Shown here: positions 2,337 to 23,111 of the stretch, one piece after another
Layout: each line of letters starts with the position of its first letter
Position numbering within the stretch: position 1 is the stretch's first letter
IMG/VR virus record: IMGVR_UViG_3300018080_000553
Coordinates: 1 to 25,505 of that record
Source: a virus
Direction: 5' to 3' (one strand)
Length of the DNA: 25,505 nt
Translations under genes and position numbers: made by a program
Notes under the pieces: model-generated
What the model was told of the DNA's origin: nothing
The model's database searches: none
The model's input: the letters and a program-made list of their open reading frames with translations, nothing else

Positions 2337-2885
2337 TTGGCTTTACGGAAGAAAAAAGCTGTTAGGAAGAATAAACCTGGGGCAGGTAGGCCAACAAAGT
2401 ATGACCAATCTTATTGTCTAGATTTATTGGAGCATATGGGAAAGGGTCTTAGTTTTGAATCTTTTGCGTCAACGATACAAGTAAACCGTGACACTTTATA
2501 TGCTTGGCGTTCTAAGTATAAAGAATTTTCCGATGCATGGGTAATGGGCCGAGATCGTTGCCTTACTTTCTGGGAGAATCTTGGTGCCGCTGGCATCATG
2601 GGACTAAAAGAGTTTCTAGATGGCAACGGAGAGGTGCGCCCATTAAAGACCAAAGGCTTTAATAATACTCTTTGGATTTATAATATGAAGGTTCGCTTCG
2701 GGCGCGACTGGATAGAACCTGATAAGGCTGCAATGATTGAGAAGGTGAATCGTTTTCTTGAGGCCAAAGAAGCGCAAGAAGCAGCTGATACTTCTGATGC
2801 CCCAGTCGAGTATGTTGTGGAGATGAATGAGGCTGGTAAGTTTAAGCATTCACGTCCTAAACTTATTAAGGCTAGTGGTGAATGA
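2337..2885 (+). CDS. terS: terminase small subunit
   Basis: A 182-residue protein that should recognise phage DNA and load TerL at the start of packaging. The N-terminus is very basic and leads into PGAGRPTKY (residues 14-22), the hallmark opening of many small terminases. A helix-turn-helix region follows at about 40-58 (FESFASTIQVNRDTLYAW). The remaining part contains a helical oligomerisation-like region and an acidic C-terminal portion. The start is TTG 2337. An in-frame stop at 2331 leaves no room for an earlier start, and AGGTGA at 2328-2333 serves as ribosome site. The stop overlaps the TerL ATG (ATGA 2882-2885), as expected for coupled terminase genes. Confidence 0.88.
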   Translation: MALRKKKAVRKNKPGAGRPTKYDQSYCLDLLEHMGKGLSFESFASTIQVNRDTLYAWRSKYKEFSDAWVMGRDRCLTFWENLGAAGIMGLKEFLDGNGEVRPLKTKGFNNTLWIYNMKVRFGRDWIEPDKAAMIEKVNRFLEAKEAQEAADTSDAPVEYVVEMNEAGKFKHSRPKLIKASGE

Positions 2886-4288
2886 ACAAGCGCATAAAGA
2901 TTCATTTGCCAAAGCCGCATGAAGCGCAAGCTATATTTGTATACTGGATGTATGCCTATCCTGAAGCGCATGCTCTAATAGCTCCGTGTGGTACAAAGTT
3001 CGGTAAAAGTTTTGCGTGTGCTCTTTGGCTTGCTACTGAGGCTGTCAACAATCCTAGAAGTTTTTGCGTTTGGATTGCTCCTACATACTTGAAGTGTAAA
3101 ATTGGCTACAGGTATTTGAAGTATTTGCTGGATATACCTGGGTTTGCCGAGTGCCTTGATGGTTCTCTTGAGATACGCCTTTCAAACGGTTCATTTATAA
3201 AATTCCTGCATGGTAAAGATTCTGAAGTTGTAATTGAAGGTGAAGCTGTTGACCGTTTTGTTATTGATGAGAGCGGAAAGCAATCAAAGCAGCTTTGGTT
3301 TTCTTTGTTCACTACTATTACGCAGACGCGAGGATATGGGATTGTTACAGGCACGCCTCGCGGGTTTAATTGGTATTATGACGAGTTTAGAAAAGCCAAG
3401 CTTGGAGATCCGTTTTATTGCTGGGACCAATTGAGAACAGAAGATAGTCCTTTTGTCAATCCAAAAGCGATTGAGCAAGCAAGACGTTTACTTCCACCGG
3501 CGCTTTTTCAGCAGTACTATCAAGCAATGTTCGTTTCAGATTCTACCGTGTTTGGTGACCTTTCCACCATGTGGGATAGTGCCCTTGAGATAAAGAACCC
3601 TCAGTGCAAGTTCTGGATACATCCAGACGCGGCCACAAGATCTTTTGATACTGTCACAGGCTGGGATATTGCAAAGCACCGAGATTATTCTGTCTTTTTT
3701 ACAGTAAATTCGGTTGGTAATATGGTCGGGTATGCTCGCATGCGTCATGTCAATTATCAGACGCAGGTGGGGCGGTTAAAGCATTACATGGAGACTTTTT
3801 TCACAGGGGATAAATCGATACGCTATGACAAGACTGGCGTTGGTGACGCTGTTGGTGAGATGTTAACCGAGGCTGACATCGATGCAAGTATTACAGGCGT
3901 GAACTTTACAAACCAATCAAAGCAAGAGATGATATCTAGATCAACCATGGCAATTGAGCGCAGCTGGCTTAGAGCCCCTAGAATTGAGCAGTTAGATCAC
4001 GAGTTTAGCAGTTATGAAGTTAAGGTAACAAAATCAGGGCTTTACTCCTACTCTGCACCAGACGGTGACCACGATGATACTGTGAGCGCTGGCATGCTGG
4101 CTATATCTGGGGCCTATCAATCTTCGCTAGCAGAAGACGCCGATAAAGTGTTAGAACAGTTAGTAAACGCCGACTTTGAAAATAACAAGGAAGACGATGT
4201 TGGTGAGTATCTAGCTGCCTTTGATGGTCAAGAAGATGACTTCTTTGATGATGACAAGACAGATGATTTTAGCTTCGATCTAGACTGA
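2882..4288 (+). CDS. terL: terminase large subunit
   Basis: A 468-residue packaging motor with ATPase and nuclease domains. The Walker A region is CGTKFGKS (36-43), Walker B is RFVIDE (125-130), with D129 and the catalytic E130, and the coupling motif is TGTPRG (156-161). The RNase H-like nuclease follows: D262 in GWDIAKHRDYS, D316 in YDKTGVGD, and the C-terminal acidic cluster DGDHDD (394-399). All three metal-binding positions are present, so it looks intact and active. The last 60 residues are very acidic and may contact the portal or TerS. Length is normal for the family. The GTGA/ATGA overlap with TerS argues for coupled translation. Confidence 0.95.
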   Translation: MNKRIKIHLPKPHEAQAIFVYWMYAYPEAHALIAPCGTKFGKSFACALWLATEAVNNPRSFCVWIAPTYLKCKIGYRYLKYLLDIPGFAECLDGSLEIRLSNGSFIKFLHGKDSEVVIEGEAVDRFVIDESGKQSKQLWFSLFTTITQTRGYGIVTGTPRGFNWYYDEFRKAKLGDPFYCWDQLRTEDSPFVNPKAIEQARRLLPPALFQQYYQAMFVSDSTVFGDLSTMWDSALEIKNPQCKFWIHPDAATRSFDTVTGWDIAKHRDYSVFFTVNSVGNMVGYARMRHVNYQTQVGRLKHYMETFFTGDKSIRYDKTGVGDAVGEMLTEADIDASITGVNFTNQSKQEMISRSTMAIERSWLRAPRIEQLDHEFSSYEVKVTKSGLYSYSAPDGDHDDTVSAGMLAISGAYQSSLAEDADKVLEQLVNADFENNKEDDVGEYLAAFDGQEDDFFDDDKTDDFSFDLD

Positions 4289-4299
4289 GGTGATTTTTT

Positions 4300-6567
4300 A
4301 TGTGGCCTTTTAAATCTAAGACAGACACTTCTTCGCAAGAGCCCACAAAAAAAGAAAACAGTAAATATGACCTTTCAGAAGCGGCTGTAAAAAGCAACGT
4401 TATGAATCTTTTTAACGCTGCAATTGATGAAGCCGTCGGGAAAGCAAACGATTTTAATGCCTATGCAATTGAAGAAGGCCAAGGCAATTATTATGGTACT
4501 GAATTTAATATCAGAGCAACAGCTGGCAGGATAAAAAGCACGTACACGCGAGAGCCATGGGTTTTTGCGACTTCTAGCCTTATTGCAAGAGCGTTGTCTA
4601 CTGTTCCCTATGTGGTGAAATCAAAGACTACAAATGAGGTTATCCCAAACCACCCACTTCTAAAGCAAATTGAATGTGGTAGTAGTATTCAAGATTCTTT
4701 CTCCATGAATTGGTCTGGCTATCTTGATTTAACTCTTGGTGGAAACTACTTTCAGGTTTTTGATAAAAAATTCACTGAGTGTATTCATGTTCCTGTTGAG
4801 GATGTTGAGCTTAAACTTTCCAAAGACTGTAAAACGGTTCAAAGTATTGTCGTGCATGACAGCAACGATTGCGGCAAACGGGCCGAGATACCTTATGAGC
4901 AGGTAATCCACAGGAAATTCCCAAACCCGTACAACAGATATTATGGATTGTCGTTGTATGTTGCAGCCAGCCGTCCTGTACTTTTAGATCGCTATATGAA
5001 TGAATTTAATATGGCTTTCTATCTGCGTGGCGCTACAAATGCAGGGGTCATCGAGACAACTGAGGACATGGGCAAGACCCGTTTAGAAAGGCTCATGCGA
5101 ACGTTTGAGCAGCTTTATACTGGTAAACGAAACTGGTTTAGAACTGTATTTATTCCTAAAGGCGGTAAATGGGTCAATGCTGGCCTGTCCATGACAGAAG
5201 CACAACACCTGGAGACGCTGCGTGAAAATCGTTATTCTCTTCTAGCTGTTCTTGGCATTCCACCTGCAAAGGTTGGTCTTACCGAGGACGTGAACCGAGC
5301 TACTTCTGATAACCAAGACAAAGATTTTTGGGAAAATACTGTTTCTCCTTTGTCTAAATTTGTCGCTGCTGGCTGGAATAATAGTTATTTGGTTAAGGGT
5401 ATTTATAAAGACGCTATTTATGTTGAGCCTGATTTTTCTGGTGTCGTTGCTCTTGAAGGTACGCTTGAGAATAAGGGAAAACAAATAACAGCTGTCAAAG
5501 ATGTCTTGCTCATTGATGAAATACGTGAAGATATTCTTGGCTACGAGCCGTTGCCTGATGGACGTGGTGATATGTTTATTGCTGAGGTGGGCAATAGTTT
5601 TGATCCATTTTCTGGCGCTCTTAGTCTTCCTGAAGCGTCTGAAGAAGATTTAAAGAAGATTGAAGACAATGGTTTTGCAAAGATAAAAAATGCAGCAACG
5701 TCTGGGCAGGAACGTCTCGAGACAAAGCTGAGTAAAACATATTCTACAGGGTACAAAAAGTATATCGACTACATTCTTGGGCTTGCTATTTATGCGCTTA
5801 ATAATGAGGTTGATGTAAAACAGTATCTTGGAAACAAGATTGATGAGATCACGGATGTGTACGTTAAGTCTGTAAATAAGCCTCTTTCTGATGCTGTGCT
5901 TCGTGGTTTTAGTTTTGCCAATAGCAATTCAAAAGCGTTTTCTCTTTTATTTGACACTATTAAATTTGCAAAACTAGGCGTCAATAAAAGGATGGCATAT
6001 GTAACAAAGTTCAATGACGTCGATCAACAGGCTATAGATTTACTTAGAGAAGAGCAAGCAGATGGGCAGCGCACTATTTTAGTCCAGCGTGCGATTGATT
6101 CTTTTCTTGGGTTCAATCAAACAAGAACAAATGAAATTCTAGATATAATTGCTTCTGGCCTAGAAAAGGGGGACACTGCTGATGTAATCGCTGGTGATCT
6201 TCGGGCCGCGTATAAAGAAAAGTATAGTGGTCAAGCATTCACTGTGGCAAGAACCGAGATACTTACTTCTATAAGCCAAGGCATTAAGTGGAATCATGAT
6301 GTTCTTGGTGAAGTATTTAGTGATGTTGAAAAACAATGGTATCATGTTGGAGATGCTGGGAGTAACCCAGACGCTCGGCAAGAGCACGCGGCGTTTGAGA
6401 AGCAAGGGCCACAAGTAAAGGGGTACAAGTATGGTGGGCTTTTAGAGTACCCACGTGATCCAAACGGTGGCGCGTCGGAAACTATTAATTGCCGCTGCAC
6501 AATGGCCAGTGTCATACCAGATCATGCTACAAGCAACGCAGAAATAATTTTAGATACATTGGGGTAA
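4300..6567 (+). CDS. portal protein fused to a MuF head-morphogenesis domain
   Basis: A 755-residue protein. Residues 1 to about 430 have the pattern of HK97-type (SPP1-like) portals: an early YTREPWVFATSSLIARALS stretch, NYFQVFD, a later LLAVLGIPPAKVGLTED, and FWENTVSPL. The portal is the dodecameric ring through which DNA enters and to which the tail is joined. Residues of about 560-755 match the MuF family: R651-T652-E653 (ARTEILTS), a conserved H696 in ARQEH, PRDPNGG, and the signature INCRCT (N730-C733). MuF proteins are minor head proteins, usually a separate gene after the portal, so this is a fusion. GAGG at 4287-4290 precedes the ATG. The gene starts 11 bases after TerL. Confidence 0.92.
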   Translation: MWPFKSKTDTSSQEPTKKENSKYDLSEAAVKSNVMNLFNAAIDEAVGKANDFNAYAIEEGQGNYYGTEFNIRATAGRIKSTYTREPWVFATSSLIARALSTVPYVVKSKTTNEVIPNHPLLKQIECGSSIQDSFSMNWSGYLDLTLGGNYFQVFDKKFTECIHVPVEDVELKLSKDCKTVQSIVVHDSNDCGKRAEIPYEQVIHRKFPNPYNRYYGLSLYVAASRPVLLDRYMNEFNMAFYLRGATNAGVIETTEDMGKTRLERLMRTFEQLYTGKRNWFRTVFIPKGGKWVNAGLSMTEAQHLETLRENRYSLLAVLGIPPAKVGLTEDVNRATSDNQDKDFWENTVSPLSKFVAAGWNNSYLVKGIYKDAIYVEPDFSGVVALEGTLENKGKQITAVKDVLLIDEIREDILGYEPLPDGRGDMFIAEVGNSFDPFSGALSLPEASEEDLKKIEDNGFAKIKNAATSGQERLETKLSKTYSTGYKKYIDYILGLAIYALNNEVDVKQYLGNKIDEITDVYVKSVNKPLSDAVLRGFSFANSNSKAFSLLFDTIKFAKLGVNKRMAYVTKFNDVDQQAIDLLREEQADGQRTILVQRAIDSFLGFNQTRTNEILDIIASGLEKGDTADVIAGDLRAAYKEKYSGQAFTVARTEILTSISQGIKWNHDVLGEVFSDVEKQWYHVGDAGSNPDARQEHAAFEKQGPQVKGYKYGGLLEYPRDPNGGASETINCRCTMASVIPDHATSNAEIILDTLG

Positions 6568-7962: not shown

Positions 7963-9369
7963 ATGCCCGAAGCAACTACAGAGCAAACAACAGAAGCAAA
8001 GGTTGATGGAATCACCGAGATTCTTTCAAACAAAAAGGCACCAGAAGTAACTGGGCGTCCTATCTATGAGAAAGACATGGACTGGCTGGCACTTGGTGGA
8101 TTTAAAAGTCTTCCTCAAGTATTTGGCCAAAAGATCGAAGAGCGCAGCAATGCTCCAGCTCTTCCTTTAAACTTTGGATCGAAATCACATTGTGGTCATT
8201 TGCCTGAAGATACTCGCTTGCGTCTTTTTCATCTTAAAAAGATGATTAACAACCTTGAGATTCAAACTCAGGTCAAGAATCCAGGCGCGGCGCTTACCCC
8301 TGCTATGATGAAAGACACGCCGATGTATAAGGACCATCTTAAGCCATTGCTTAAGGCGTTCAACATCACTGATTTTTCAAACTGGATTCCAACAGTCAAC
8401 GCACGTTTCTACTTTGAAGAGTATGAAATTCCTTTCATCTTGGCTGATCAATTTGATCAAATGCCAATGGACTCAGCCACGGTAGAAGTACCAGGTGACA
8501 CAGGTGTGCTTGAAGGCCATGAAGAAACTGACGGTGCCACATTTGGTGAGCAGTCAACTACACAGGCGAACTACGCGGTTACTTCTCGCAACAACGTAGT
8601 GCATACAAAGATCACAGAAGATCTTATGCAAGACAATGCGCCTCCAATCATTGATAAGCTGCGTCGTGATGTTGTTAAAGGCATCGTGCGTGCTTACGAA
8701 AAAGCAATCATAAATGGTGATACAACCATTTTGACAACTGTGCGTGGTGATGGCCATATGGACACAGATACAAGAGCACTTGGTCTCAATGAGACTTTCT
8801 CAAAGGCTTTTGATGGCCTTCGCAGAAAGTGTATCAACAACGACAACACACTTGGTGCAAGTGGTAACGCAGATGTTGCCTACAAGCACGGCGGTGACAC
8901 AGCGTCTAAAGTGCTTTTTGAAAAAGTGCTTAACCTCATGGGCAAATTTGCCAGTGAAAAAGATACGCTCCGTTGGATCATTCCAAGTGTTATCGAGAAC
9001 CAAGTTGTAACAGGCGCGATTCCTGAACTGTTTACAGCGTTTGCTTATGGTGGACTCGCTTCGAACGTCACCGGCCAGATGCCTCCAGTCTTTGGTGTCA
9101 AGCCAGTTACTTCTCAGTACGTGCGTGATGACCTAAACGAATCAGGCGTTTATGATGGCTCGACAACAGACAGAACAATCATCATGCTTGTCAAAGTTGT
9201 TCGCTTCTATCAATTTGTTCGTCAAGCAATGCGTGTATGGGCTGCTCCTTCTCTTCCATCTTCTGACTACATGCTCATGACCGCCAAGATGCGACATTCT
9301 TGGAACGGCAACAACCAAACAGCTGAGGAACTCGGCATCACTATGGGATACGATATTCTTAGAGCATAA
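7963..9369 (+). CDS. major capsid protein
   Basis: A 468-residue protein placed directly after the protease/scaffold gene, as is usual. The pattern FYFEEYEIPFILADQFDQMPMDSATVEVP is followed by a central helix-rich region with RAYEKAIINGDTT, and then by a C-terminal part with RFYQFVRQAMRVWA and a final GITMGYDILRA. This is the layout of HK97-fold capsid proteins (spine helix, A-domain and P-domain). ATG 7963 is chosen over the in-frame GTG 7957, which lies inside the ribosome site GAAGGAG (7951-7957). It is the last gene before a strong terminator at 9394. About 415 copies would be expected for a T=7 head, which fits the strong ribosome site. Confidence 0.9.
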   Translation: MPEATTEQTTEAKVDGITEILSNKKAPEVTGRPIYEKDMDWLALGGFKSLPQVFGQKIEERSNAPALPLNFGSKSHCGHLPEDTRLRLFHLKKMINNLEIQTQVKNPGAALTPAMMKDTPMYKDHLKPLLKAFNITDFSNWIPTVNARFYFEEYEIPFILADQFDQMPMDSATVEVPGDTGVLEGHEETDGATFGEQSTTQANYAVTSRNNVVHTKITEDLMQDNAPPIIDKLRRDVVKGIVRAYEKAIINGDTTILTTVRGDGHMDTDTRALGLNETFSKAFDGLRRKCINNDNTLGASGNADVAYKHGGDTASKVLFEKVLNLMGKFASEKDTLRWIIPSVIENQVVTGAIPELFTAFAYGGLASNVTGQMPPVFGVKPVTSQYVRDDLNESGVYDGSTTDRTIIMLVKVVRFYQFVRQAMRVWAAPSLPSSDYMLMTAKMRHSWNGNNQTAEELGITMGYDILRA

Positions 9370-9393
9370 GACAATCGGTTTCAAATATATTTT

Positions 9394-14869: not shown

Positions 14870-15279
14870 TTGAGGCTCTAGTTGATCTCAACTTTGCTAA
14901 AGAGGGCAGCCGAAAATTATTTGATTGTAAGCTGTGCAGAAAAAACCCAAGTAATGCGAAGATGAGAAAATGCGAAGAGCCCGGTTTCAAGAACATGAAG
15001 CGGCCACGGAAGATAGATGATAAGAGCCTTGAGTATTATTTCTGCGCCGGTAAAGCAACTTGGTATGAAGGACTCGAGACAGTTTACGAAGAGTGCAAAG
15101 TGGCTATGTACACAGGTATTTTACCCGGAGAGGGTAGCTTTTATGAGCAGGACAGTGTTTTCGTTGAAGCCTTTCCTGCTTTTGTCCATAGGTGGAAGGA
15201 AAGAAACTATGGGCGTATATGGGAAGATGTCCGAGATTTTGTAGAGCCTATTCTAAAGTCGTTTGGAACCAAAAAGTAA
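14866..15279 (+). CDS. T-extension of the tail chaperone, made by -1 frameshift
   Basis: Reading continues in the -1 frame from codon CTG 14866 for 137 residues to TAA 15277-15279. It gives a gpG-T fusion of about 296 residues together with the upstream part. The extension starts LIEALVDLNFAKEGSRKLFD and contains C-x2-C and a later C (CKLCRKNPSNAKMRKC), followed by aromatic-rich helices. In lambda-like tails the T-part recruits the tape measure. The internal ATG 14962 has no good ribosome site, so separate translation from there is unlikely. The -1 relation and the slippery site are seen directly. Confidence 0.8.
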   Translation: MIEALVDLNFAKEGSRKLFDCKLCRKNPSNAKMRKCEEPGFKNMKRPRKIDDKSLEYYFCAGKATWYEGLETVYEECKVAMYTGILPGEGSFYEQDSVFVEAFPAFVHRWKERNYGRIWEDVRDFVEPILKSFGTKK

Positions 15280-15289
15280 GGGGCTTGCT

Positions 15290-18200
15290 GTGGCGATCAC
15301 TAAAGATCAAGAATTCAAGATAAAGATATCTGTTGAAGACAACGCCACAGCAGGCTACGAATCCCTTGAAGGCAAATCTGTTGATGTTGTAGAAATATCT
15401 GAAGAGCTTCAAAAACAAGTTGAAGCTGTCACTGTTGCCCTAGAAGCTAATAATGAACAGTTGAAAGTGGCTAACACAGCTATGGACGCAACAGCAGGCG
15501 CTTCAAAAGTGCTTGATTCAAGTATGTCTGTTCTTGAAACAACCCTAAGTGGTATTGTAGCTCTAAATGTAGGTGATGCATTTTCTCCAGGGCTTAGAAA
15601 GGGAATCGCGCAAACATCACTTGCCGTAAGTAATTTCACAACAGATGTTTCTGACTTTGGCAAAACGGTCTCTAAATCATTCACACCTGGAATACTTGGG
15701 CTCGCAGAAAAATCTGCTCTTGCAACACCGGCGCTTTTGGCGCTTAGTTCTGTACTTGCTAAGACTGACAATGAAGCGTTAAAAACAATTGGCACACTTT
15801 CAACACTCGCAGCCATTTTGCTTGGTTCTTTTTCTCTTGCAGTTACTTTTGCACTAAGAGCCGTGGCAAACTTTGCTGAATCAATTGGCGACACTCTTAT
15901 TGCCTCTATGGTTGGTTTTGAAAAGAAGGCAGCAAAGTTTGAGGCTTCACTTTTTAATCTTAAATTTAGTATTGAGGGTATTTCACGCGAGGTTGGTGAA
16001 ACGGCTGTAAACTCATTTAAAAAATGGTCTGCAATAATTGCAGAGACAGACAAAAAGGTGTCTACATCTACGAACAGCCTTGTAAAGATGGTAAACCTTA
16101 TTTCTAACGAGTCTACAGCGCTTGGGCTTAAGCCTGTTGATCAAATAAAGATATACCAAGCTGCTCTTGATGTGGCCGCGAGCCGTGGCAAAGATGCACT
16201 TGAAGTTACAAACGCTCTTCTTAAGGGTCTTGGAAGCACTACAGAACCAGCGTTTAATCTAGGTATTGCCCTTCAAGATACTGCGCTTGCTCATTCGAAG
16301 TACGTTCATGAGTCTGGTAAGTCTGTTGATTCGATGAATGATCAAGAAAAGCAGCTGGCAAAACTTAGTGTTATTTATGAAAATCATAATAGAGTGCTAG
16401 GCGCTGCCGAGCAGCAAATAAACAACATCGCTGGTGCTGACGCGCTTCTTACAAAGCGTATAGAAGTTTTGCAGAGAGAACTTGGCAAGCAGGGTAATGC
16501 CACTCGCGCATTGATTAAGATACAAACTCAGTTCATAAATACACTCATTAATATGCCCGACGTGCTTATAGCAATTGTTGGAGCTGCGCAGGATTTTCTT
16601 GGCGTTTTTCTTAAGATAGCTGGGTTTACACTAAGCTACGTACTTGTACTTGCTGGTCTTACAACAGCGTACAAAATCCTTGCAGCAACTCTTTTAGAAA
16701 ACGCTACTGCCCAGATAGTCTTTACAAAAGCTATGGCATTTACTGGTACTGCACTAGGAGTGCAAACAGTACAGGTAACGTCTTTGTCAGCAGCAATGGT
16801 GAATTTAGCTGCAATAACAAAAGGAGCTGTACTAAGCTCGTTTAAATCACTTGGTGCTGTTCTTTTATCTGTTGGTAAAGCCGTGCTTAAAATGAGCAAA
16901 GCGTTTTTGACAAAGCCGATTGTACTTATTGCAGGTGCGATAGCGGCGGCCGTCTATCTCGTTGTTGAAGCTTTTCAAGACATGAGGAAAGAGATTGATT
17001 TTATTGACGATGCCTTTAAAAGTGTAGGTGAGCTTTTTGAGACCACAGCATCATCGATGTCTATATTTGATACCGCGTGGGAAGCAACAAAAGAGATTGT
17101 GCAAGGCGTTATGAAGGTGCTCGTAAGCCTTACAAAGTTTATGATTGCTGGCCACATGTCTACTATCCTTTTTGTGTCAAAAGCAATTGTAAGGTTAAAA
17201 CTAGCATTTTCAGACGCTGGGGAAGAAACCGAGGCTCTTAAAATGCAGATGGCAGAAATAGACCGAAGAATAAAAGTTCTCGGTGGTTCTGTCGGTGACA
17301 GTATTGCAGAAATAGGCTCGGCGTTTGACACATCGGCTATAGCCGCTGAGAAAGCAGGTGAAGAGTATGAAAAGGCGCGTAAACTTTTAGATACATTCAG
17401 GTCTCAAAATGCGCGTCTTTCAGCAGAGATTGACAAGCAAGTCATATCTATAAGCGTTTGGGGCACTGCTTATGAAAAAGCGGCTTCAGAGGTAGACGTT
17501 TTATCAGTGGCTGCTGGCAATGCTATGTCAAAGTACAGAAACCTTAAAGAAGAAGGTAAAGCCTCTGGTGACGAGATTAAAAAGGCTTGGGCAGACGCCG
17601 TAAAGGCGACTAAAGAACTTGCTATTGCTCACGAGCAAATGAAAAAGATTCGCGCCGATGCAATCCTCGATATGATCGCAAAGACTCAAGATCTTAAAGT
17701 GTCCGAGTTAAAGAGTAGCAAAGAGCTTGTTAAGGCAGCTGAGCTTGAACTTAAGTTAAAACTTGACGCGTTTGATAAAGAGGCTAAAGCGCTTAGAAAA
17801 GTATTTAAGCTAAAAAAAGAAGAATTAAAAATAATTGACGATATGCGTTCTGCTATAGAGAAAGAAGGAGCGGCCAGAATCGCAGCTGCGCAGGAACAAG
17901 AAATAAAGGACGCGCAAGAACAAGCTGGTAAAGGTGCTATTTTATTTGATCAGAGCCAAATACAGACCATTGAATCGGCTCTTGGCGGTACAGCGGCTGA
18001 TTTTGCAAGTGGAATGGCAAGTGCCACATCTGGAGTACTTGGCGTCGTTGCAGCTCTCAACATGATAGTCCAGGCGCTTCAATCTCTCATCGACCTTATT
18101 CCCAATCTAATAGACGGCATTACTGGTCTTTTCACGTCACTAACAGATCTTCCTGCCCGTATATCAGACGCTCTAAAGAACCTAGCTAAGGGAATAACCG

Positions 18201-19987
18201 ATTTTGTATCTGAGTTTATACCAAATTTAATAGACTCTATTGGCGATATTATGATGACAGTCCTTGATTTTTTCATCGAAGGGCTGCCAAAAGCGTTTGA
18301 AAAGTTGATGGAGAAAATACCAGAGGCATTATTAGGGTTGATAGAACGGCTACCAGAAATAGCCTTTAAGTTTGGTCAAGCGCTTGTAATGTTCTTTACA
18401 CGGGGCGCTAAATTTGTTGTCATTTTTGCCACTGCTTTCATTAAGGCAGCGCCAAAGCTGATAACTGCCCTCATTCGCGCCATGCCCGAGATAGCCATGG
18501 GGCTCGTTGATGGAATCATTTTCGCAGGAAAAGAGCTTGTGAACATGATCGCAAATCTCTTTGGTATGGGCGATATCTTCAACATTGACATGGGTAATGT
18601 TCAAGAAAACATCGAGCAAATTGGAGATAGCATAGCTCGGAGCGCATCTAAACTTTTTGAAGTCATTGATCTTACCGCCGAGATGCGTGGGCTTACAATG
18701 TCCGATCGTATCCACGACGCGATTAAATCGGCGATGTGGGACGTACTTGCGTGGCTTCAAAACCTTTGGAAGAAGTTTGTAAAATGGCTTTCAAGCGTTG
18801 GTAAAGCAATCTGGGAAGGGCTAAAGCAAGCTATAATCGACGCTTGGGAATTTATAAAAGAAATGGGCAAAACCATATGGGAAGGGCTCAAAGCTGCCGT
18901 TCAGCAAGCTTGGAACTTCATAAAAGAGATTGGCTCTACTATTTGGGAAGGTCTAAAGAACATAGCTTCACAAGCATCGGCGTTTCTTGAAAACCTTGGT
19001 AAAGACATATGGGAAGGTGTTAAAAAGGGGTTCTCGTCTGCTCTTAACTTTTTTCAAGATATTGGCAGAAACATCTGGGAAGGGTTTTGGAATAACTTCA
19101 AGCAGCTTGGTTCATTTATAACGCGGATATTTGATAGTTTAAACCCAAAGAACTTTTTCCTAAAAATGTTTGATGACTCCGGCGCTTGGGGTACAAGTAC
19201 TGTTGAAAACGCCCTTGGCATTGATGTACCTTTTATAAGCTTTGCTCAAGGCGGCATCGTGCCAGGCTCGGCAGTAACCCGTGGCGATAGTAATTTGAAT
19301 GATCGTGTTTTAGCCCTAGTGTCTCCAGGTGAGGCAATCATACCACGGAGTGATATGGAGAATCCAAGAATAGCCAATATGATTGGTCAGGTTCTTGATG
19401 GAAAAATACCATCTTTTAGTATTGGCGGCGATGTTATTGATTTTGTAACCGGTGGCGGTGATGGTGGCTTTGGTCTTCCAGACCTTGGAGACATTGGCAA
19501 TATTAGCATAGATAATTTTACAAGTTCTATGTCAGCTGCTTGGGAAGGACTTAAATCTGAAGCAAAAGCAGGGTGGAAAACGCTTATAAATGACGCCAAC
19601 ATGTTTATTAAATTTCTTAATCCTGAGTACCTTTGGAGACAGGTGTATGGCAACACTATGAAAGGTATTTGGAGAATGATAGAAGCCAATAAATTTGCCA
19701 CTGGTGGGTACGTGGCTGATTATGGCCTTGCCGAGCCAGGTGAGTTTGTTATGAAGCGATCGGCTGTTGACTCGATCGGAGTAAACACGCTTAACGATAT
19801 GAATAATGGAATGAGTCAAAGGGCAGGAACCGGCGGCGGTATCACTATTCAGAAAATAGAGATCAATGCACGCACGGATCTATCCCCCGCGTCTGTTAGA
19901 AGTGAGATACTCCCAGAAATAGTCAAGGGCATAAAGCGAATGTCGCAAGACGGTTCGTATGTTCTTAGTGCAAAAGGAGTTAGGTAA
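15290..19987 (+). CDS. tape measure protein
   Basis: A 1565-residue protein from GTG 15290, which has TAAGGGG at 15277-15283. A TTG at 15263 in the same frame lacks a site. It sets tail length and travels with the DNA at injection. Long helical regions are mixed with hydrophobic segments at about 180-195, 425-470, 540-562, 915-950 and 1040-1085. Five tandem 22-residue repeats occur at 1174-1283, each starting IWEG. Two GG...PGE motifs (at 1318 and 1469) with the ending FATGGYVADYGLAEPGEF are the usual C-terminal signature. At roughly 0.15 nm per residue it would give a tail near 235 nm. It overlaps the next gene by one base. Confidence 0.92.
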   Translation: MAITKDQEFKIKISVEDNATAGYESLEGKSVDVVEISEELQKQVEAVTVALEANNEQLKVANTAMDATAGASKVLDSSMSVLETTLSGIVALNVGDAFSPGLRKGIAQTSLAVSNFTTDVSDFGKTVSKSFTPGILGLAEKSALATPALLALSSVLAKTDNEALKTIGTLSTLAAILLGSFSLAVTFALRAVANFAESIGDTLIASMVGFEKKAAKFEASLFNLKFSIEGISREVGETAVNSFKKWSAIIAETDKKVSTSTNSLVKMVNLISNESTALGLKPVDQIKIYQAALDVAASRGKDALEVTNALLKGLGSTTEPAFNLGIALQDTALAHSKYVHESGKSVDSMNDQEKQLAKLSVIYENHNRVLGAAEQQINNIAGADALLTKRIEVLQRELGKQGNATRALIKIQTQFINTLINMPDVLIAIVGAAQDFLGVFLKIAGFTLSYVLVLAGLTTAYKILAATLLENATAQIVFTKAMAFTGTALGVQTVQVTSLSAAMVNLAAITKGAVLSSFKSLGAVLLSVGKAVLKMSKAFLTKPIVLIAGAIAAAVYLVVEAFQDMRKEIDFIDDAFKSVGELFETTASSMSIFDTAWEATKEIVQGVMKVLVSLTKFMIAGHMSTILFVSKAIVRLKLAFSDAGEETEALKMQMAEIDRRIKVLGGSVGDSIAEIGSAFDTSAIAAEKAGEEYEKARKLLDTFRSQNARLSAEIDKQVISISVWGTAYEKAASEVDVLSVAAGNAMSKYRNLKEEGKASGDEIKKAWADAVKATKELAIAHEQMKKIRADAILDMIAKTQDLKVSELKSSKELVKAAELELKLKLDAFDKEAKALRKVFKLKKEELKIIDDMRSAIEKEGAARIAAAQEQEIKDAQEQAGKGAILFDQSQIQTIESALGGTAADFASGMASATSGVLGVVAALNMIVQALQSLIDLIPNLIDGITGLFTSLTDLPARISDALKNLAKGITDFVSEFIPNLIDSIGDIMMTVLDFFIEGLPKAFEKLMEKIPEALLGLIERLPEIAFKFGQALVMFFTRGAKFVVIFATAFIKAAPKLITALIRAMPEIAMGLVDGIIFAGKELVNMIANLFGMGDIFNIDMGNVQENIEQIGDSIARSASKLFEVIDLTAEMRGLTMSDRIHDAIKSAMWDVLAWLQNLWKKFVKWLSSVGKAIWEGLKQAIIDAWEFIKEMGKTIWEGLKAAVQQAWNFIKEIGSTIWEGLKNIASQASAFLENLGKDIWEGVKKGFSSALNFFQDIGRNIWEGFWNNFKQLGSFITRIFDSLNPKNFFLKMFDDSGAWGTSTVENALGIDVPFISFAQGGIVPGSAVTRGDSNLNDRVLALVSPGEAIIPRSDMENPRIANMIGQVLDGKIPSFSIGGDVIDFVTGGGDGGFGLPDLGDIGNISIDNFTSSMSAAWEGLKSEAKAGWKTLINDANMFIKFLNPEYLWRQVYGNTMKGIWRMIEANKFATGGYVADYGLAEPGEFVMKRSAVDSIGVNTLNDMNNGMSQRAGTGGGITIQKIEINARTDLSPASVRSEILPEIVKGIKRMSQDGSYVLSAKGVR
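18809..19138 (+). repeat. five tandem 22-residue repeats in the tape measure
   Basis: Units start at 18809, 18875, 18941, 19007 and 19073, each exactly 66 bases long. Each opens with IWEG and carries an aromatic residue (F) around position 15 and a G around position 20 in units 1 to 4. The protein-level identity is high, but the DNA copies are diverged, so the repeat is old and maintained by selection. Confidence 0.85.
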
Positions 19988-21396
19988 TGGCTGAAGGGTA
20001 TCTTGATCGAGAATATTTAGAAGATGAATACCTCTCGGGTATAAACGACCCGCCTAGCGGCATGCAGGTAAATCAGGTAATTAGAAAACAAGCCACAACG
20101 GGCATGCAGGCTGACCAAGCTATTATTGATAGCCATGCATCTGGCATGCAGGCAGCTATGACTGTTGTTGATATGCTTAATGCAGCTGGCATGCAAGCAA
20201 ACATGATCACAGATACCAGTGGTATTTTTGGTTTTCAAGTTGACATGAATATAGGCGATATCCCAACCGTTGGTGGTATGCAGGCCAAGCAGTACCCTCT
20301 AAGACATTGGCTTTGTGATGAAGGGTACCTTGAAACGCCTTATCTTGAAGAGTCATATCTGAGTTACTGCATGCGTGCGTTTCTCGGTATGCAGGCTCGC
20401 CAGCTTGTACTTGAAACAGCTGAGTCTGGCATGCAAGCTGAGATGCACATAGTGGACAAATCACTTATCACAGGTATGCAGACCTCACAGGTAATCACAA
20501 AAGAAGAAACCCTTGGCATGCAGGCAACGCAGATACGTGTTGTTAAAACAGGTATGCAGGCTGCCATGGTAATCTATAATAATACTCAGCTTCGAATACT
20601 CTGTGAATTTCCAAGCCGTGGAACCGAGGCGCTTGCTGGACTTAACTGGGTCATGAGCCCAACAGAAGCAGCTGGTGATTTCAGTCCAAATAATCTTAAC
20701 ACAGATATAATCGAGCAAGTTACGCGCTCGGTAACAGCTGGCAGCATAACTCTTACATGTGACACAGGACTTAGTCAGGGCGTCCCAGTTGATACAATCG
20801 CGATACTTGGTCACAACCTTACAAAATCAGCTATTGTGCAAGTACAGGGTTCAAAGAATCCATCTTTTTCGCCGTCTGATATAGTTTTTACTATGGAGAC
20901 GCAGCTTGATGATATGTACTGGATAGCCGAAACGCTTCCAACACTTATTGGTCAGAACAGGTACTGGCGCTTTACTATTCAAGATCCAACAAACACAGAC
21001 GGATACATAGAGATTGGTACAATCTTGTTTGGTGTCAGCGATATTTTTACAACTTCAGAGTGTTTTCAAAATCCAATTGAGCACGGGCTAAAACATTATA
21101 AGGACGAGGTAGAGACCGAAGGTTTTACCAACATCATGAACGATCGCGCTCTTAGAAAATGGTTAAGACTTAGCTTTGAAGATTTAAATTATCTTAAGGG
21201 CAATTTCAAATTGATTGATGACATGGTTAAGTATGCGCGTACAAGTCTTAAATGTCTTGTGATACCGACGCCGCTGTATCCAGAGAGATACGCCGTGTTT
21301 GCTAAACTTGTGCAGCTACCATCGTATTCTAACCGCGTTCTTGAAGAAGACGCCGACTACACATCATTTTCGCTTGAATGGGATGAAAGTAAGTAA
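19987..21396 (+). CDS. GMQ-repeat distal tail protein
   Basis: A 469-residue protein. It starts with EGYLDREYLEDEYLSG, followed by eleven GMQ or GFQ repeats (residues 25-190) spaced 14-15 residues apart. One longer gap (97 to 134) holds a second EGYLETPYLEESYLS copy. The C-terminal 270 residues form a beta-rich domain with DTIAILGHNLT, YWRFTIQDPTNTDGYIEIG and a final SFSLEWDES, resembling distal tail or baseplate proteins with a jelly-roll-like part. The start overlaps the tape measure stop by one base, and the stop overlaps the next start in the same way. It should sit at the tail tip. The GMQ repeats are not recognised. Confidence 0.6.
   Translation: MAEGYLDREYLEDEYLSGINDPPSGMQVNQVIRKQATTGMQADQAIIDSHASGMQAAMTVVDMLNAAGMQANMITDTSGIFGFQVDMNIGDIPTVGGMQAKQYPLRHWLCDEGYLETPYLEESYLSYCMRAFLGMQARQLVLETAESGMQAEMHIVDKSLITGMQTSQVITKEETLGMQATQIRVVKTGMQAAMVIYNNTQLRILCEFPSRGTEALAGLNWVMSPTEAAGDFSPNNLNTDIIEQVTRSVTAGSITLTCDTGLSQGVPVDTIAILGHNLTKSAIVQVQGSKNPSFSPSDIVFTMETQLDDMYWIAETLPTLIGQNRYWRFTIQDPTNTDGYIEIGTILFGVSDIFTTSECFQNPIEHGLKHYKDEVETEGFTNIMNDRALRKWLRLSFEDLNYLKGNFKLIDDMVKYARTSLKCLVIPTPLYPERYAVFAKLVQLPSYSNRVLEEDADYTSFSLEWDESK
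20059..20580 (+). repeat. eleven GMQ/GFQ repeats of about 14 residues
   Basis: The repeats begin at residues 25, 39, 53, 68, 82, 97, 134, 148, 163, 177 and 189. The consensus is [S/T/A/L]GMQ-A-x-[Q/M]-x-I followed by a variable loop. At the DNA level GGCATGCAGG or a close variant recurs, so SphI-type GCATGC sites cluster here. The short regular period suggests a beta-solenoid or a repeated binding loop. Confidence 0.85.
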
Positions 21397-23111
21397 TGTC
21401 TAGTGTAAACAGAAGGGAATATCTAACCGCAAATGTGCTTGATCAAGCATTTCTTGACCGATGTCAGGACAATCTTGATAACGGGCTGCACATGGTTGTG
21501 GTTATCGATACGCCTACTGGATACATATACGCATCAGATAGAAACAAGTACATCAACTCAACGTTTTATGAAGCTTTAACTCAGTTCCCTATCATCAGTC
21601 GTACTGTCGGCGATTGGTTAAGCCCAGAGATAGAATTCTCAAGCCTTGACCTGGTGCTCAGTAACGTCGATGGCCGGTTTAATAACTTTGTCCCTGGCGG
21701 CGTCGATTACGACGGCTGGATAGGAAAGACAGTTACTGTAAGTCTTGGGCTCAGAGACGTAGCCAGCACATATAGTGATATTTATAAGGGAGTGGTGACA
21801 GAGATTGGTGGTTTTAAACGCGACGTTCAAAAGATCACGCTTAGGTCTCGTGATGATTTTGACAAAGCAAACAAAACGATGCCAACAACAGCTCTTACGT
21901 CCACTTCGTTCCCAGACCTTGAAGAAAATTTTGAAGGGCTTGTAGCCCCGTATATACTTGGTGATTGGACAGTAAACTTGAATCCAAACGGAGCGTCAAT
22001 ACCAGCGTTTCCCGTCAACGGCGCGAACGCAGGTGTAATTGCAGGAACGACTGCGCTTCAGCTTGTCATCTCCGATAATGCTAACAGTTATTTTGATAGC
22101 TCACATGTGTATGTAAAACGAGGCGAGCAGTACTTTGTGTTCGACAGCGGTGATATCGCAGTAAACGGTGATAAAAATCTTGTAGAAATTACGCAGGGTG
22201 CTGGCGGTGGCACAACAACGGTTGAAGACGGTGATCCGTACCTTTACACAAATGGAGACGCATTTTTTGTACGGGTTAAGGGCAAAGACCTTGGCAGCTA
22301 TGATGATAATATCATCTGGCAAGCACGTGAAATACTGATGGACTACGGTGGTCTATCCTCTGGTGATTTTGATGCAAATTGGGCGACGTACCGAGACAAG
22401 GCAACGCCAGCTGAGAGCGCGACGGCGAGTATAAAAGCGCGGGTATGGGTTGGAGAGCCACAGGAAACAGTAAAGTATGTTCTTCAGATGCTTGAGCAAG
22501 TTCGCCTTGAGGCATTTGTCAGTAGAGACCAAAAGTTTAAATTAAACTCCATGCATTTTGATGACTTTATCGCGCCTGCAAGTATCAGTTATTCAGTAAA
22601 AAATTGGGACTTGTCAAAAAGTTCATTCTCCCCAGTCTCGGACGATATAAACACGTGGAATCGTGCGAAAGGTGACTACAATTTTGACCCGAATAAAAAT
22701 GAGAACCTTTTTAGCACGGACATTTATAGAAATCAGGCCGCGATTACGCAGGCTGGGAAAGAGATCAGCAAGCTTATCGTCTTTCCAAACCTATATGTAA
22801 AAAGCGATGTCATAAATCAGCTCTCTGAGACTCTAAAACTTGCCTCGGCATACCCTGAGTATATCGAAGCTACCTTGTCTTCACGGGCCATTTTGCGAGA
22901 CATTGGCGACTTTGTTCTAGTAGATGTTAAAATCGGGTCATCTATATTCTCTGAAGTGCCTGCTATGATTAGAGAAATAGGATATGACCCGGATGGCATG
23001 AAAGTGCCCTGTAAACTTTTATCTCTTCAGATGGTTCCCTATACTGGATATGCTCCTACATATTCTGGTATTGTTGGTGGAAGCACTGCAACCATAACGC
23101 AAGAAACATAA
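21396..23111 (+). CDS. tail hub / baseplate protein
   Basis: A 571-residue protein. The first 200 residues follow a known tail-hub layout: a start such as NVLDQAFLDRC, YEALTQFPIISRTVGDWLSP, then LEFSSLDLVLSN.DG.FN-like SSLDLVLSNVDGRFNNFVPGG, YKGVVTEIGG, and KITLRSRDD. Later parts hold beta-rich regions and a C-terminal LRDIGDFVLVDVKIG. Such proteins form the hub to which the distal ring and tip attach. It is placed between the distal protein and fibre genes, with a one-base TAATG overlap. The exact family is inferred from pattern. Confidence 0.65.
   Translation: MSSVNRREYLTANVLDQAFLDRCQDNLDNGLHMVVVIDTPTGYIYASDRNKYINSTFYEALTQFPIISRTVGDWLSPEIEFSSLDLVLSNVDGRFNNFVPGGVDYDGWIGKTVTVSLGLRDVASTYSDIYKGVVTEIGGFKRDVQKITLRSRDDFDKANKTMPTTALTSTSFPDLEENFEGLVAPYILGDWTVNLNPNGASIPAFPVNGANAGVIAGTTALQLVISDNANSYFDSSHVYVKRGEQYFVFDSGDIAVNGDKNLVEITQGAGGGTTTVEDGDPYLYTNGDAFFVRVKGKDLGSYDDNIIWQAREILMDYGGLSSGDFDANWATYRDKATPAESATASIKARVWVGEPQETVKYVLQMLEQVRLEAFVSRDQKFKLNSMHFDDFIAPASISYSVKNWDLSKSSFSPVSDDINTWNRAKGDYNFDPNKNENLFSTDIYRNQAAITQAGKEISKLIVFPNLYVKSDVINQLSETLKLASAYPEYIEATLSSRAILRDIGDFVLVDVKIGSSIFSEVPAMIREIGYDPDGMKVPCKLLSLQMVPYTGYAPTYSGIVGGSTATITQET

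Follow-up and report, generated by a model that had tools for sequence, protein, structure and literature searches.

The tail-tip protein encoded in the window, the whole stretch of 25,505 nucleotides of viral DNA analysed here, begins with an arm of short repeats, and among its relatives the number of units in the second block of this arm changes in steps of three. Tentatively, and with slightly less than an even chance in its favour, we read the arm as a peripheral structure of the tail tip, a beta-solenoid-like rod that would complete a turn with every three repeats. Which bacteria a phage can attach to depends in part on the decorations of its tail tip; the quantised repeat arm is new and previously undescribed, while the type of tail-tip protein bearing it is known.

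Results

Repeat units and aromatic triplets

The original prediction, made from the letters of the window, had described eleven GMQ repeats of 14 or 15 residues, with A after the Q and Q or M three places beyond it, as an unrecognised tail-tip module. Eleven units were indeed counted in residues 25-196 (20059-20574), ten of them with GMQ and one, at residue 82, with GFQ. The Q of each unit lies at residue 27, 41, 55, 70, 84, 99, 136, 150, 165, 179 and 191, giving successive spacings of 14, 14, 15, 14, 15, 37, 14, 15, 14 and 12; the closing interval of 12 departs from the predicted period and is itself conserved in 44 family members. Position Q+3 is Q or M in 11/11 units, whereas the predicted A after Q holds for eight units only, with V in two and T in one. 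About 8 of the 14 unit positions are constrained, and hydrophobicity alternates about the Q (high at M, low at Q, high at A and low at the residue after it), as it would in a two-faced beta-strand. When residues 1-200 were shuffled 20,000 times, no shuffle contained more than three G[MF]Q motifs. The units have diverged in DNA (mean identity 49%, maximum 67%) and Tandem Repeats Finder reported no array in the window DNA, which argues that the repeats are kept at the protein level; a recent DNA tandem array in the window was accordingly rejected. The description as unrecognised held, since residues 1-200 had no match above chance in Pfam, NCBIfam, PHROG or PDB sequences. A weak match to Ribosomal_S11 (Pfam, E 0.065, below the cut-off) was taken as chance, and a literature search on the repeat unit and on length-variable tail repeats found nothing on point.

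The original prediction also placed a second type of repeat in the 37-residue gap, and this proved to be a second copy (YL2) of an N-terminal aromatic triplet (YL1) with the pattern YL-x3-YL-x3-YL. The layout of the window protein is therefore triplet, six units, triplet, five units and C-domain (Table 1). The triplet is aromatic and not strictly YL, as seen in L026 (GFGETDFGEEPFD), L060 (GYGGTAYGQANYG) and L146 (WLERTWLDTSWL). Among 64 distinct relatives, 52 have a Cys on either side of YL2, the two being 16-25 residues apart, and 51 have a His shortly before it; the window equivalents are H107, C110 and C128. Elsewhere in the arms Cys is rare (82 in 10,328 residues).

Table 1 Features of the repeat protein and of its flanking genes in the window
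Feature	Position	Strand	Basis
Tape measure protein gene, immediately upstream	15263..19987	+	PHROG tail length tape measure, 3.2e-23
Tail-tip protein of 469 aa, with the repeat arm at its N-terminus and a phrog_8610 part at its C-terminus	19987..21396	+	ORF, translation, PHROG
YL1: first aromatic triplet GYLDREYLEDEYL, aa 4-16	19996..20034	+	translation; in almost all relatives
Block 1 (aa 25-110): six repeats of 14-15 residues, with H107-x2-C110 at the end of the sixth	20059..20316	+	unit counting, n1 = 6
YL2: second aromatic triplet GYLETPYLEESYL, aa 113-125, between C110 and C128	20323..20361	+	translation
Block 2 (aa 134-196): five repeats, the final interval 12, with the C-domain following directly	20386..20574	+	unit counting, n2 = 5
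Predicted F5/8 type C / CBM32-like beta-sandwich domain, aa 205-351	20599..21039	+	AlphaFold pLDDT about 90, structure comparison
C-terminal domain, aa 355-469: predicted long beta-hairpin, helix, further strands	21049..21393	+	AlphaFold, weak tail-tube matches
Next tail gene, 571 aa, possible hub	21396..23111	+	ORF list, position in relatives

Gene neighbourhood

The repeat-protein ORF begins where the tape-measure ORF stops (19987). A gene of the 571-aa type lies directly downstream, always so in relatives; the window copy has no family match. Wherever relatives have enough flank, the order is constant: tape measure, repeat protein, a protein of 550-660 aa, one of about 225 aa, one of about 140 aa and a fibre-like protein. 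The gene thus occupies a distal-tail-protein (Dit) type of position, after the tape measure and before the putative hub gene, in the window and in its relatives. This strictly conserved order, together with the phrog_8610 part at the C-terminus, supports the predicted assignment to the tail tip, and the product is probably a peripheral tail-tip protein, either a distal tail protein or a ring partner of it.

Some observations were made on other genes. In L021 (9515-11461) and L027 (9658-11610), the gene that follows the repeat protein codes for some 80 additional aa, and residues ~225-285 of its product match a stretch common to the tail-fibre families phrog_9370 and phrog_7765; judged by this match, the stretch is perhaps an inserted module. 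The window portal protein (4300-6567) is a single ORF of 755 aa (PF04860, 5e-38), with a C-terminal extension that is possibly Mu F-like (PF04233, 0.0035, below the cut-off). The terminase large subunit (2882-4288) is distant from those of cultured phages, with a best match of 33.5% to Tunturiibacter phage Tunturi_4, and the Thermus P23-45 group ranks lower among its matches.

The C-terminal part

By profile match the C-terminal ~270 residues can be assigned to phrog_8610, a family without a named function (E 2.9e-15 over residues 225-350 of the window protein; in L013 the match is near full-length, 2.7e-11 over profile positions 21-254). AlphaFold modelled residues 203-469 mostly at pLDDT 90 or more. 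The confident model gives residues 205-351 a predicted F5/8 type C / CBM32 discoidin-like fold (against 4zy9: VIA Z 15.4, rmsd 2.1, 128 residues), a shared fold that by itself shows no carbohydrate-binding function. A further structure comparison of the C-terminal part was taken up by this domain. In the model, residues 360-466 show a long hairpin, a helix and more strands, and Foldseek gave weak matches to the tail-tube proteins 9l0f_G and 9jlf_E (T1 and FCWL1 tube proteins). From these weak matches and the gene position, residues 355-469 are possibly tail-tube- or distal-tail-like. A sequence-profile search against solved structures gave nothing credible and no match to a solved distal tail protein.

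Relatives and steps of three

Scans of viral contigs gave about 90 distinct relatives with the same architecture and gene order, all from uncultured phages. Cultured phages yielded none: 50,697 phage records held no relatives of the repeat protein or of the next gene, bar repeat look-alikes in Aeromonas phages. A full repeat protein was found on one bacterial-genome contig, a 7-kb Bacteroidetes MAG contig, which is too weak to name a host. The relatives keep the spacing of 14-15 residues, and their repeats number between 2 and more than 20. In 32/32 proteins the units are more alike within their own protein than to units of other proteins, and units of the same ordinal in different proteins are barely more alike than others (0.221 vs 0.213). 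An ORF across 3000-3735 of L285 carries 12-residue units with G[IVT]E[AG] replacing GxQ; five were counted by eye, ambiguously.

Units were counted by a chained profile, with n1 denoting block 1 and n2 the units between YL2 and the C-domain. The distance from YL2 to the C-domain falls only near 40, 82, 125 and 169 residues, and n2 was 5 in 43 proteins, 2 in 16, 8 in 11 and 11 in one, that is, 2 mod 3 in 71/71. For L028 the script, missing the second triplet, gave 19 units, and n2 was read by eye as 5. The value of n1 was 0 or 1 mod 3 in 63 of 65 proteins; of the two exceptions, L083 reads 3 by eye and L021 remains 8. Where there is only one triplet, the protein has 2 or 5 units, L060 (3) and L046 (12) being the exceptions. 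The latter (7971-9392) looks as if an ancestor with the 7+5 units of its relatives had lost YL2.

Given that many of these proteins share ancestry, changes were counted on a maximum-likelihood tree built from 80 C-domains. On this tree n2 changes at least 16 times and every change is a multiple of three, a result with probability 2e-8 when each residue mod 3 is given the same odds and 6e-5 at block 1's own rate. For n1 there are at least 33 changes, and n1 mod 3 changes at least 15 times. That n2 would be 2 mod 3 was forecast before two further scans, and all seven new two-block proteins fit (5, 5, 5, 5, 8, 8 and 5; for L211 and L226 the script had taken the wrong triplet, and their units were read off the sequence by eye), so that the rule holds in 78/78 counted proteins overall. 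Comparing repeat number between related phages, which the original prediction had proposed as a check, therefore revealed steps of three in block 2.

The same period appears in the units themselves. Units three apart were more alike than units two or four apart in 38/53 blocks (Wilcoxon 8.6e-6); the peak is smaller but persists in pairs under 60% identity, and lag 6 showed no similarity excess. Duplications of three units could account for part of this peak. L116 carries a tandem duplication of 132 bp, spanning three units, whose copies are 99% identical. L100 contains four near-identical 42-bp single units and its block counts, 12 and 8, still fit, which indicates that single-unit change occurs while the counts are kept. 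In block 1 the choice between spacings of 14 and 15 depends on phase mod 3 from YL2 (permutation p 2e-4; p 0.016 without the three intervals nearest YL2).

Structure prediction of the arm

AlphaFold2 monomer models gave the repeats of the window protein a pLDDT of 30-45 and the most regular relative a mean of 39, the alignments being shallow (45 and 13 rows) and scrambled by differences in repeat number. Disorder throughout, which the original prediction had named as contrary evidence, was not cleanly obtained, for the low-confidence model of that relative has about one strand per repeat. The suggested beta-solenoid thus meets mixed evidence: pLDDT values under 50 speak against it, and the steps-of-three rule favours a solenoid with three repeats per turn.

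Discussion

On our tentative reading, the conserved C-terminal part, which bears the carbohydrate-binding-module-like domain, would anchor the protein to the tail, and the N-terminal 200 residues would form an arm of 14-residue units, each consisting of one beta-strand (G-hydrophobic-Q-hydrophobic-x-x-x-I) and a loop. Three consecutive units (42-44 residues) would make a full turn or layer of a three-sided beta-solenoid-like rod, and the aromatic triplets would be caps or joints, YL1 starting the arm and YL2, probably closed by its Cys pair, interrupting it. The rule in block 2 is most simply read in terms of a chain that rotates by 120 degrees with each unit and, being held at its two ends, would gain or lose only whole three-unit turns. 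Because the YL2 joint and the C-domain would fix the rotational phase of the rod at both ends, units of block 2 would be tolerated only in threes, and block 1, ending near the free N-terminus, would be looser, as observed. The arm would project from the tail tip as a short spacer and/or a multivalent contact surface for the host envelope, probably outside the tube, since it precedes the lectin-like domain. The variable receptor-contact surface suggested earlier stays putative; it is compatible with the divergence between phages, the homogenisation within proteins and the lectin-fold neighbour.

Several points count against the solenoid. A 14-residue face is long for known triangular solenoids, and the low AlphaFold confidence weighs against a monomeric solenoid, a fold that is often predicted well. 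Block 1 also departs from a strict rule, with n1 at 0 or 1 mod 3, a count of 8 in L021 and at least 15 of 33 changes that are not multiples of three. The wider proposal, namely a new three-sided beta-solenoid or three-unit layer of 14-residue single-strand repeats with period-5 aromatic caps, in which a fixed phase leads to whole-turn evolution, serving as a modular length-variable arm in a large uncultured phage clade, seems to us possible though somewhat doubtful.

The low monomer confidence also bears on other arrangements. If the repeats of two or three neighbouring subunits wound together in an intertwined oligomeric fibre, in the style of a triple beta-spiral or triple beta-helix, a single chain would look unfolded, and the model of the most regular relative does have a low pLDDT and roughly one strand in each repeat. 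With 14-15 residues, the strand-plus-turn unit comes close in length to that of the adenovirus-type triple beta-spiral (15 residues), and the invariant polar Q stands beside hydrophobic positions. We leave such a fibre some probability because the monomer model has no confident fold, but we consider it unlikely: the chains of a C3 fibre are equivalent and require no mod-3 phase, yet 78/78 proteins keep theirs, which favours a single-chain three-sided solenoid over a symmetric intertwined trimer. Nor does a six-subunit ring round the tube, if one is formed, obviously give trimers. Alternatively, the arm could be extended and mostly unfolded, its units each donating a strand to a protein partner on the tail tip, hub or fibre, with the triplets as docking motifs. 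The low pLDDT all along the repeats, the single-strand units with tolerant loops and the presence of partners in a fixed gene neighbourhood agree with such strand donation, which is nevertheless rather improbable, as self-packing better explains the very regular spacing, the homogenisation in 32/32 proteins and the steps of three, except in the case of a three-fold partner.

The steps of three might also arise in the DNA, by unequal crossing-over between the most similar units, three apart, and free of structural selection. The lag-3 similarity and the 132-bp duplication in L116 point that way; however, L100 has expanded by 42-bp single units and its counts still follow the rule, block 1 in the same set of proteins also changes by numbers that are not multiples of three, and the linkers vary in length according to phase, so that we give such a bias a small probability. 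The adjoining tape measure gene suggests a spacer whose length would follow that of the tail or of the tape measure. This is very improbable, being contradicted by the absence of correlation of tape-measure length with the number of repeats (Spearman 0.07, p 0.69, n=34). The length spacer of the original prediction therefore fails as a partner of tail length, and a local spacer could still be accommodated.

If the arm is solenoid-like, evolution would have recorded in its quantised length a three-dimensional period that was not recovered by structure prediction. The rule predicts that removing one unit breaks the arm and that removing three is tolerated, and quantised repeat counts could serve to infer the turn size of other repeat proteins.

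Comparison with known systems

The YadA-type left-handed beta-roll has a 14-residue repeat. This roll and the adenovirus-type triple beta-spiral resemble the arm in repeat length (14-15) and differ from it in their conserved positions. YadA-like head repeats in fibre proteins of L005, L008 and L011, which came from a DNA pattern search, were rejected, as only the letters GMQA are in common.

The repeats most like those of the arm are in the phrog_1101 tail protein of Aeromonas Casjensviridae (AVP3, vB_C4, BUCT551 and others), whose C-terminal PYGLQPGVIADLTA-type repeats have a 14-residue unit, PYG[ML]Q....I.D (tblastn E 3e-9 from L013). However, the array lies in another protein, at the other protein end, and is accompanied by no YL triplets; as far as the sequences go, the likeness may be convergence. 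In L014 (2218-6603) and L015 (2296-6876) the Aeromonas protein ends in long 14-residue PYGLQPGVIADLTA or PYGLRSTVQAELLP arrays, and related arrays occur in nine Aeromonas phage records.

The phrog_8610 proteins found elsewhere share the C-terminal ~270 residues of the window protein, and none of them has a GMQ arm or YL triplets. They are stand-alone proteins of 265-282 aa in EBPR siphovirus 2 (gp71), Synechococcus phage MinM1 and a Pseudochelatococcus contig, and in Azospirillum phage Cd phrog_8610 forms the C-terminus of a 915-aa tail protein (gp49), behind a different N-terminal extension. Since the family is elsewhere stand-alone or behind an unrelated extension, the GMQ arm is an added module.

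In position there is a parallel with siphophage distal tail proteins. That of roseophage R4C carries a carbohydrate-binding insertion domain (PMC10276861), and LSH1 gp24 has an N-terminal galactose-binding-like decoration on the distal tail protein (PMC13243795); such lectin-like decorations are thought to aid adsorption (PMC10276861, PMC13243795). In comparison with these proteins the arm is extra here, and there is no sequence match to the solved ones. Like those of R4C and LSH1, the repeat protein is encoded by the first gene after the tape measure, and, as in LSH1, its lectin-like domain stands N-terminal to a domain that, here, is possibly tube-like.
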